Below, piece after piece: positions 28,459 to 30,319 of a DNA stretch of 43,656 bases. Under the pieces are notes generated by a model. It saw only the letters and a list, made by a program, of their open reading frames with translations. It did no database searches and was not told the origin of the DNA. The translations under genes were made by a program, and so were the position numbers. Each line of letters opens with the position of its first letter. Positions within the stretch are counted from its first letter, which is position 1. The DNA lies in assembly GCA_016789865.1 (NCBI GenBank), contig JAEUPC010000142.1, positions 1 to 43,656 on the forward strand, in the 5' to 3' direction. The stretch comes from Rubrivivax sp. Lineage in GTDB: Bacteria; Pseudomonadota; Gammaproteobacteria; Burkholderiales; Burkholderiaceae_C.

Positions 28459-29283
28459 GTGAGCTCCGCAGAAGCACCGCCCCCCTCATCTGGCACATCC
28501 GCGCCGTCCCCGGGCACGCCGGCCGCGGCCGCCGCGCCGCAGGCCCAGCCTGGCATCGTGCTGCAGCCGCTGTCGATGCGCGACCCGTTCCTCTGGCTGT
28601 GCCAGGGCTGGGCCGACTTCCGCCGCGCGCCAGCCATCGGCCTGTTCTATGGCGGCTGTTTCACCGTCATGGGCTGGGCACTGATGAAGGTGTACGAGCA
28701 GGCGCCGGCCTACCTGCTGGCGCTGTCGGCGGGCTTCCTGCTCGTCGCGCCGTTCCTGTGCCTGGGCATCTACCACGTCAGCCGCGAACTGCAGGCCGGG
28801 CGCCGGCCCGACTTCGGCGCTTCGCTGATGGCCTGGGAGTCGCGCATGGGGCAGCTGGGCATCTTCGCCTTCGTGCTGCTGGTGCTGGAGATGCTGTGGG
28901 CGCGCTCGACCCTGGTCATCTTCGCCGTCACCTTCGACGGCATGCCCGACTTCAAGGGCTCGATCTCGGCGCTGTTCAACCCCGAGAACATGACCTTCAT
29001 CGTCGCCTGGGCCGTGGTCGGCGCGATCTTCGCCACGTTGATCTTCTCGGTCAGCGTGGTCAGCATGCCGATGCTGCTGGACCGGCCTACGGACGCCATC
29101 ACCGCGGCGCTGACGAGCCTGCGCCTGGTGCTGACCCGCACGCCGGTGATGTTCTTCTGGGGGGCGCTGATCGCAGCTATCACCTTCACCGCGATGGTGC
29201 CGTGGTTCACCGGCCTGGTGGTGGTGGCGCCGGTGATCGGGCACGCGTCCTGGCATGCTTATCGCGCTGCGGTCGCCGCCTGA
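28459..29283 (+). CDS. DUF2189 / BPSS1780-family integral membrane protein
   Basis: A 274-residue membrane protein of the DUF2189 family. An Ala/Pro-rich cytoplasmic N-terminus (about 1-35) precedes five or six hydrophobic spans (about 58-80, 84-106, 130-160, 175-205, 230-268). Conserved family pieces are DPFLWLCQGWADFRRAP, APFLCLGIYHVSRELQAG, SVVSMPMLLDRPTDAITAA and HASWHAYRA near the end. Function is unknown; these proteins appear alone or near respiratory genes in Burkholderiales. GTG at 28459 is the likely start; TAGGCT lies 6 nt before it as a weak -10 candidate. No RBS. Confidence 0.85.
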   Translation: MSSAEAPPPSSGTSAPSPGTPAAAAAPQAQPGIVLQPLSMRDPFLWLCQGWADFRRAPAIGLFYGGCFTVMGWALMKVYEQAPAYLLALSAGFLLVAPFLCLGIYHVSRELQAGRRPDFGASLMAWESRMGQLGIFAFVLLVLEMLWARSTLVIFAVTFDGMPDFKGSISALFNPENMTFIVAWAVVGAIFATLIFSVSVVSMPMLLDRPTDAITAALTSLRLVLTRTPVMFFWGALIAAITFTAMVPWFTGLVVVAPVIGHASWHAYRAAVAA

Positions 29284-29343
29284 TACGGCTTCGGGATCGA
29301 TTGAATTGGTCGGGGCCACAGACCGTGGCGGATTCGGGCCGCC

Positions 29344-29594
29344 GGGGTGCCCTGCTCCGCGAATGTCCTCTAGCGGCGGCCCAGCTTCGCGGGTCCCCCG
29401 CATGCCCCCTTGATTTCGCTGCGCAGGGCACCCCATCGTCACGATCCGGCACCCGCGTCGGGACCTGGCCCACGAAGACCCACCCAGGTGCCACCGACGA
29501 CGGCGGGTGGTCGACGCAGCGAAACAGAGGATGCACTCAGGGGTCCAGCGAAGCTGGGCCGCTGAACAAGGACATTCGCAGAGCCGACCACCCG
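29344..29594. repeat. Inverted pair of 91-nt structured elements
   Basis: Two elements of identical length face each other: L at 29344-29434 and R at 29504-29594 (reverse). Each is bounded by its own terminal inverted repeat: GGGGTGCCCTG / CAGGGCACCCC in L, CGGGTGGTCG / CGACCACCCG in R. Aligned in the same orientation, the terminal stems differ at four positions and in each case the partner base has changed to keep the pair. The interiors share GCGAATGTCC, CGGCCCAGCTTCGC and TTTCGCTGCG, including an inner stem GCGAA/TTCGC. The 424-bp gap (29284-29707) contains nothing else recognisable; reading frames crossing it are repeat-derived. Resembles an oversized BIME/REP pair or a structured RNA. 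Confidence 0.85.
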
Positions 29595-29707
29595 GCGTCC
29601 TCGGCGCCACCATCTCGTCGAAGGCCTTTCCATGTTTCGAACGCAAGTGCGTACGAGCGGGCGGCTGCGCGCACTGGTGGCGGTCCGGCCTCGGGGCCGG
29701 GAGCGGC

Positions 29708-30319
29708 TCAGCGCCGGTCGTGCAGCGCGTAGGCGATCGTGCTCAGGTCGACATACTCGAGGTCGCTGCCCACCGGCACGCCGCGTGCCAGCCGCGTGGC
29801 CTTCAGGCCGCGCGCCTTCAACGCGGTGGCCAGCGCCTGGGCGGTGAGTTCGCCTTCGGCGGTGAAGCCGGTGGCCAGCACCACCTCCTCCACTGTGCCG
29901 TCGCAGGCGCGTTGCAGCAGGCGCTCCACACCGATGTCGGTGGTGCCCACGCCGTCGAGCGGGCTGATGCGGCCCATCAGCACGAAGTACAGGCCGTTGT
30001 AGCTGCCGCTGCGTTCCAGCGCCGCCTGGTCGGCGGGCGTCTCCACCACGGCCAGCAGGCGGGTGTCGCGGCGTGGGTCGGCGCAGGTGCTGCAAACATC
30101 GGCTTCGGTGAAGGTGTGGCAGCGCGAGCAGTGACGCACCGACTGGGCTGCCTGACGCAAGGCGCCGGACAGGTGCAGTGCACCGGGGCGGTCATGCTGC
30201 AGCAGGTGGTAGGCCATGCGCTGCGCCGACTTCACGCCCACGCCGGGCAGCCGGCGCAGGGCCTCGACCAGCTCTTCGAGCGCGTGGCCGGGCCGGGCGG
30301 GCTGGGGCGTGGGGGTCAT
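29708..30319 (-). CDS. recR: Recombination mediator RecR
   Basis: A 203-residue RecR, which with RecF/RecO loads RecA at single-strand gaps. Features in order: helix-hairpin-helix [20 protein letters not shown] (21-40), the four-cysteine zinc finger C64-x2-C67 ... C76-x2-C79, the TOPRIM domain ([29 protein letters not shown]) and the C-terminal Walker-like [19 protein letters not shown]. Length matches the family. Third in the dnaX-ybaB-recR operon on the minus strand, 60 nt after ybaB. Confidence 0.97.

Follow-up and report, generated by a model that had tools for sequence, protein, structure and literature searches.

Results

Structure of the element between the DUF2189 gene and recR

The window, that is, the whole 43,656-nucleotide stretch of Rubrivivax sp. 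DNA analyzed in this study (contig JAEUPC010000142.1), contains a gene for a DUF2189 membrane protein (28459..29283, forward strand) that converges with recR (29708..30319, reverse strand). The convergent gap between them holds an element of a young subfamily that measures 370 bp including its outer ends (29284..29653, forward strand). These limits were set from the ends common to the young copies, from the end patterns at copies genome-wide, and from the corresponding gap in relatives, which was short and element-free in all 14 relatives in which both genes were recognized, including two with approximately 90% DUF2189 identity. The left copy of the target site is TGA (29281..29283, forward strand), three bases that double as the DUF2189 stop codon; the right copy (29654..29656, forward strand) is CGA here, one base off the left TGA, most other copies having TGA or TCA.

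Within the element lie two 91-mers, L (29344..29434, forward strand) and R (29504..29594, reverse strand), which the original prediction had described as an inverted pair with compensatory changes in the terminal stems. L and the reverse complement of R indeed align without gaps, with 66 of 91 bases identical. Stem pairs 1-91, 7-85, 8-84, and 10-82 differ between L and R on both sides with complementarity kept, L has G-C and R has G-T at pair 11-81, and an additional pair, 12-80, also forms. The three inner blocks are likewise found in both L and R and proved to be the most conserved letters of the units. The conserved internal-loop block GCGAATGTCC occupies 29359..29368 of L (forward strand) and 29570..29579 of R (reverse strand), and the block TTTCGCTGCG occupies 29414..29423 of L (forward strand) and 29515..29524 of R (reverse strand).

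The predicted 11-bp stem is present in L and R, but most copies carry a longer one, which extends outward by approximately 11 to 13 bp to a total of approximately 25 bp. With this outer stem, the left unit spans 29326..29453 (matched on the forward strand by covariance model R1, described below, at 117 bits; the strand favored in the wider family is the reverse one) and the right unit spans 29485..29612 (matched on the reverse strand at 120.6 bits; favored strand, forward). The outer extension is worn around L. Compared with shuffled sequence, R folds far better (z -7.4) and L moderately better (z -2.7).

Copies in the host genome and in other taxa

The host genome assembly comprises 4.59 Mb in 247 contigs and is 76.9% complete. 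A BLAST search of this assembly with the 251-bp stretch spanning L and R returned approximately 40 distinct full or partial copies (76 match rows, including opposite-strand self matches). Covariance model R1, which was built from 30 host-genome units, matched at least 66 distinct units at 76 bits or more in the same genome, counted down to the first opposite-strand duplicate and with the 30 training units among them. Of 60 genomes sampled from the same genus, 33 contained units. A second covariance model, R2, built from 58 diverse units, was applied to an order-wide sample of 250 genomes and detected units in 12 of them (the host genome included), which represent 7 of 121 genera and three families. 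The further copies that the original prediction had asked for are thus present both in the host genome and in related Burkholderiales.

Scanning named genomes for the unit pattern yielded at least 117 stretches. The stretches listed came from Rubrivivax, Hydrogenophaga, Rhodoferax, Ideonella, Methylibium, Aquabacterium, Paucibacter, Roseateles, Caldimonas, Variovorax, Polaromonas, Ramlibacter, Sulfurisoma, and one Rhodocyclaceae MAG; outside Burkholderiales, they included Luteimonas terricola, Lysobacter sp. A03, and a Lysobacterales MAG, in which R2 confirmed the units. The clearest case outside Burkholderiales is Luteimonas terricola, where loci L234, L268, L271, and L276 have the same design. 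Carriage on plasmids or phages was also considered and set aside: three Variovorax records of 1.19 to 1.30 Mb carry units, and the four stretches opened were all without annotation. No units were found in phage records or in E. coli genomes, and the viral collection gave one contig. At loci L187 and L189 to L193 of genome G230, copies lie between the arms of another type of repeat, TAGCTATTNAATTNNTAGC, so that two repeat families are nested there.

Covariation and structure of the unit

RNAalifold analysis of 30 host-genome units revealed a stem of approximately 25 bp, an asymmetric internal loop, and an apical hairpin, with double changes in 27 of the 37 predicted pairs. In an alignment of 58 units from many genomes that was not fitted to a covariance model (A3), 24 of 26 stem pairs were double-changed, a number as high as which occurred in none of 500 shuffles, and 91.8% of the cells were paired, compared with 37–43% when the alignment was slid by one to three columns. 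Alignment A4 was fitted to the covariance model and consists of the best 150 of 182 matches, possibly with some opposite-strand overlap among them; here 25 of 26 stem pairs were double-changed (one of 500 shuffles reached that number), the covariation score was 0.686 compared with 0.165 after shuffling (none of 500 as high), and 90.4% of the cells were paired compared with 33–47% after sliding. The number of further pair types in the 150 units did not exceed that in the shuffles, 70 of 500 of which reached it. The many copies with double-changed stem pairs rule out a coincidence of two sequences, and together with the intergenic placing described below they support the original prediction that a hairpin, rather than a protein, is under selection.

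The unit thus consists of a stem of up to approximately 25 bp, a purine-rich internal loop of nearly fixed letters, and a variable apical hairpin. On the favored strand, the loop reads AGCGAA[G/A]T.AAGG.GGAG opposite GG.GGACAT[GA/TC]GC. The two sides are coupled. Among the 135 of 150 units of A4 that could be parsed, GAAG occurred with TGA in 113 and GAAA with TTC in 20, with 2 others; among the 27 of 30 parsed in the host-genome alignment, the combinations were GAAG/TGA in 16, GAAA/TTC in 8, GAAA/TGC in 2, and GAAG/TTC in 1. We interpret the coupling as an exchange between tandem G.A mismatches and Watson-Crick pairing. The favored strand was also considered as a translation start (AAGGAGG ... 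ACATG), a reading that was dropped because window-type units lack that ATG.

Matches to the covariance models were mostly 105 to 141 nt long. Long extra sequence was observed inside the units at L078:1501-1641, L089:1501-1641, and L075:1653-1841; at L078 and L089 it lies within the apical hairpin, a part that therefore tolerates insertions.

Strand asymmetry of stem mismatches

In A4, 403 of 3,889 stem cells departed from Watson-Crick pairing. On the strand opposite to that in which the unit was first written, hereafter the favored strand, these mismatches comprised 228 G.T, 80 A.G, and 43 G.G, compared with 30 A.C, 8 C.T, and 5 C.C of the opposite types; 9 were A.A or T.T. The totals are therefore 351 G-type versus 43 C-type, and the G-type was more frequent in 125 units, less frequent in 8, and tied in 17. 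Most stem pairs and most lineages contributed to this excess; the asymmetry was reversed in Luteimonas (0 versus 4, from few cells) and in one other lineage (1 versus 2). In agreement with the direction of this excess, the favored strand had the more stable RNA folding energy in 194 of 210 units (105 pairs).

In the 30 host-genome units, the asymmetry was weak or absent, with 13 G.T versus 16 A.C and 11 A.G versus 3 C.T and 4 C.C. The favored strand folded better in 37 of 59 host-genome units and, in the window, slightly better for L and not for R. Because the stem mismatches outside the host genome are mostly G.T, G.A, and G.G on one strand, they point to selection on a single-stranded fold, which explains the asymmetry in the wider family and is not clear for the host-genome units. 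A mutation bias tied to the orientation of the unit would be a less probable source of the asymmetry. The tolerance of G.A and G.G besides G.T suggests that DNA fits at least as well as RNA, and single-stranded DNA rather than RNA would be the selected form.

Pairing and gene context

Paired units were arranged head-to-head in 127 of 130 cases among the covariance-model hits, a count from which weaker overlapping opposite-strand matches were dropped by hand and which leaves out 36 single units, probably including some with partners below threshold, and 20 units at contig ends. One pair, at L282:6320-6576 of Roseateles asaccharophilus, has the opposite, tail-to-tail order. In this count and in the following one, four places (in Sulfurisoma and Ca. 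Nitricoxidireducens) fall in two loci each and were counted twice.

Gene context was called with a home-made gene finder based on codon usage. Only 2 of 216 elements overlapped a called gene, which bears out the intergenic location anticipated in the original prediction; 71 lay in convergent, 91 in tandem, and 7 in divergent gaps, and 45 had no neighbor on one side. Convergent or tandem gaps therefore account for 162 of the 169 classified gaps. Element-free gaps longer than 100 bp in the same loci were convergent in 17 cases, tandem in 165, and divergent in 106, and Fisher tests revealed that elements were enriched in convergent gaps (p 1.4e-20) and depleted in divergent gaps (p 1.9e-17).

In tandem gaps, the 61 pairs lay at a median of 32 nt downstream of the upstream gene and 68 nt ahead of the next. 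Both units of these pairs were equally stable whatever the direction of transcription (p 0.23), which fits selection through mobility and not through one transcript. The 16 single units in tandem gaps showed no orientation preference (7 sense and 9 antisense).

Insertion sites, ends, and remnants

A search with R2 in 29 recR loci of relatives found no units. Given the element-free gap in relatives, the pair in the window appears to be one recent copy of an interspersed repeat that spreads like a short mobile element. Young copies in the host genome share common ends over approximately 370 bp and have imperfect terminal inverted repeats, and the left-end and right-end patterns occur at element copies across that genome. 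Among the 16 young copies with both ends recognized, a 3-base TNA duplication was evident, with identical flanks in 10 and the same middle base in 14. No insertion sequence with the ends of the young subfamily was seen in the host genome assembly (76.9% complete).

In three derivatives the L hairpin was missing, the junctions lying at its base or close to it, and one remnant lacked the whole core (G000:C78:26419-26442, which is locus L146, and L029, L030, and L041). Such junctions near the hairpin base are expected from deletion of a DNA palindrome during replication.

The outer ends and the insertion sites vary between lineages, and the hairpin core is the part common to them. A single transposase that recognizes the ends is therefore unlikely. 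In Sulfurisoma sediminicola (G307), the outer sequences are different, and in 7 of 10 copies (L166, L167, L169, L171, L173, L174, and L175) the terminal ACTGANATG directly abuts the start codon of the following operon gene, mostly with a GGAG-like stretch just upstream. The old start codon seems to have been kept at the left end of these copies, and the element may carry a ribosome-binding site of its own.

Search for a mobilizing enzyme

The REP-associated (Y1) transposase suggested in the original prediction was searched for. The results did not bear out such an association. No Y1_Tnp match was found in the host genome, which is weak evidence when taken alone since the assembly is 76.9% complete. 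Furthermore, no unit occurred in 42 Y1 loci of approximately 3 kb; 30 of them gave only five chance-level matches of 9.5 to 11.4 bits, and the other 12 gave none. The presence of Y1 was also independent of the presence of units: in a hand tally of the 60-genome genus sample, Y1 was present in 15 of the 33 genomes that carry units and in 14 of the 27 that do not. Among 19 unit-bearing genomes examined, 10 had Y1 and 9 had none. It was absent from the high-copy genomes G012 (99% complete), G063, G078, and G018, and, among the matches listed, five genomes reached 56 or 57 units each, of which only G009 had Y1. A Y1 transposase was consequently rejected as the driver for lack of both linkage to, and correlation with, the units.

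An IS91-type Y2 transposase was also rejected, a Y2_Tnp match, in some cases weak, being found in 7 of 17 unit-bearing genomes. Among the recurrent neighbors of the units, judged by eye, no hidden transposase was recognized, and the clusters looked metabolic, transport-related, or housekeeping.

Recurrent placing in operons

Elements recur in propionyl-CoA carboxylase/methylmalonyl-CoA mutase operons and in protocatechuate-4,5-dioxygenase-type clusters, at varying gene boundaries, the gene names being our reading of the translations. In the propionate operons of several genera, elements lie between pccB- and pccA-like genes at L239, L265, L280, L311, and L317, and between mutase- and meaB-like genes at L175 and L180; the L280 site has three units. 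Recurrence across genera was observed for 47 of 73,536 pairs of immediate neighbors versus 72 of 415,416 pairs of farther genes, with unlabeled loci taken as separate genera, so that related species inflate both counts. Copies at corresponding operon boundaries were 62–76% identical, like unrelated copies (medians 71–72%, from a background of one family only). Because they are no more alike than other copies, we rejected them as proof of a kept function; the recurrent placing in operons is a hint of a host role, not proof.

Discussion

The reading we favor, with a probability of roughly 0.6, is that the repeat is a mobile element, interspersed and non-autonomous, that consists of two long, imperfect, head-to-head hairpins, a giant counterpart of the REPIN/BIME. 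We infer that it is mobilized in trans and that a protein recognizes its loop. An enzyme supplied in trans would recognize the folded single strand of each unit through the fixed loop letters. The substrate would be one strand per unit, and within a pair these strands would point outward. Copies that disrupt promoters or genes would be lost, so that the surviving insertions would lie mainly downstream of genes, in many cases at stop codons. We propose only tentatively, and with some doubt, that the family represents a separate class of mobile DNA, characterized by a large folded single strand and a fixed purine-rich loop, present in at least two orders of Pseudomonadota, and served by a dedicated enzyme that is neither Y1/RAYT nor IS91-type Y2.

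Several other explanations account for part of these findings. The repeat may be a cis-acting RNA, in which case a transcribed double hairpin would tune the transcript ends, mRNA stability, or translation of its neighbors and be kept by selection. The placing behind genes and inside operons, the avoidance of divergent gaps, the recurrent neighbors (47/73,536 versus 72/415,416) in the propionyl-CoA carboxylase and protocatechuate-dioxygenase-type operons, and the strand-specific fold are all consistent with this explanation. Nevertheless, in tandem gaps the transcribed favored-strand unit is no more stable than its partner, single units have no preferred orientation, the site in the window is empty in relatives, copies at equivalent operon boundaries resemble each other no more closely than copies of the one-family background do, and Rfam provided no family. 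We therefore regard a cis-acting RNA as improbable. We also consider it unlikely that the repeat is a MITE with conserved cargo, whose ends and transposase would come from a lineage-specific insertion sequence and in which the hairpin pair would be a passenger. The imperfect inverted repeats and TNA duplications of the young host-genome copies suit such an origin, as do the different outer sequences in Sulfurisoma with their recurrent end at a start codon, and, judged by the TNA duplication, the supplier in the host genome would presumably be of IS5/IS1031 habit. However, no insertion sequence with such ends was seen in the 76.9% complete assembly, and the part shared across lineages is the hairpin core and not the ends.

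An ordinary REP/BIME spread by a Y1 (RAYT) transposase would have the same inverted-doublet architecture and the same gene context (PMC3116915, PMC3733652), and Y1 is present in about half of the unit-bearing genomes examined (10 of 19). This explanation is largely refuted and we consider it very improbable, given the size of the units, the scarcity of the GTAG tag, the four high-copy genomes without Y1, the 42 Y1 loci without a unit, and the similar frequency of Y1 in unit-bearing and unit-free genomes of the genus.

The meaning of the repeat lies in its relation to the REPINs, which are explained by a linked RAYT. The present family has the same design and genome habits, with units several-fold larger, no GTAG tag, and no linked or correlated RAYT, which implies either a second route by which hairpin pairs spread or an undiscovered recognizing factor. 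Because the loop letters, the favored strand, and many copies are now defined, tests of binding, mobility, and transcripts can be targeted, and the repeat, apparently unannotated in many environmental Burkholderiales genomes, gains a testable identity.

Comparison with known repeats and mobile elements

ERIC, Correia, and similar large palindromic repeats are approximately 100–300 bp long, intergenic, and foldable, like the units described here. To our knowledge, they are limited to other groups and have neither this loop nor the double-unit design. Integron attC sites, which we take not to be the identity of the units, were set aside. Against Rfam, the stretch in the window had no match at E values up to 1, and 12 loci gave five sub-threshold matches at chance level at E values up to 5. 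Among the literature matches listed, there was no description of this element, and those to the letters of the unit were all to one 10-letter word in unrelated papers. The table of PMC2864571 includes the candidate motifs Burkholderiales-1 and GUCCY-hairpin, without an Rfam number. The former is alike by taxon and the latter has a name that resembles the invariant ATGTCCY of the units; on this comparison of taxon and name, the two motifs may be related to the units.

Like MITEs, the elements are short and non-coding and have imperfect terminal inverted repeats with a 3-bp target duplication, the last in young host-genome copies only. No parent insertion sequence was found for them in the 76.9% complete host assembly, and, in contrast to MITEs, it is their core, not their ends, that is conserved across orders.

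The closest resemblance is to the REPs. REPs form inverted doublets with a preference for convergent and tandem gaps (PMC3116915, PMC3733652), a REP is defined as a palindromic unit of 20–50 nt that follows a conserved tetranucleotide, usually GTAG, with a tnpA-REP (Y1) gene next to some copies and correlated with their presence, and the REPs of E. coli have an irregular stem and one recognized strand (PMC8266576). The family described here differs in that its units measure approximately 105–135 nt with a large internal loop of fixed letters, in that the GTAG tag is missing as a rule (at the foot of the favored strand, GTAG occurred in 5 and CTAC in 4 of 103 spacers), and in that no Y1 (RAYT) gene is linked to or correlated with the units. 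Of the features that characterize REPs, the inverted intergenic doublet is thus present, whereas the unit size, the tag, and the linked Y1 gene are not. The likeness to a BIME noted in the original prediction holds for the architecture of inverted paired hairpins. In common with REPINs and BIMEs, the family shows a pair of inverted hairpins separated by a short spacer, numerous copies between genes with a preference for convergent and tandem gaps, stem irregularity, and one favored strand; it is a real, widespread, and strongly structured double-hairpin repeat of REPIN-like design.
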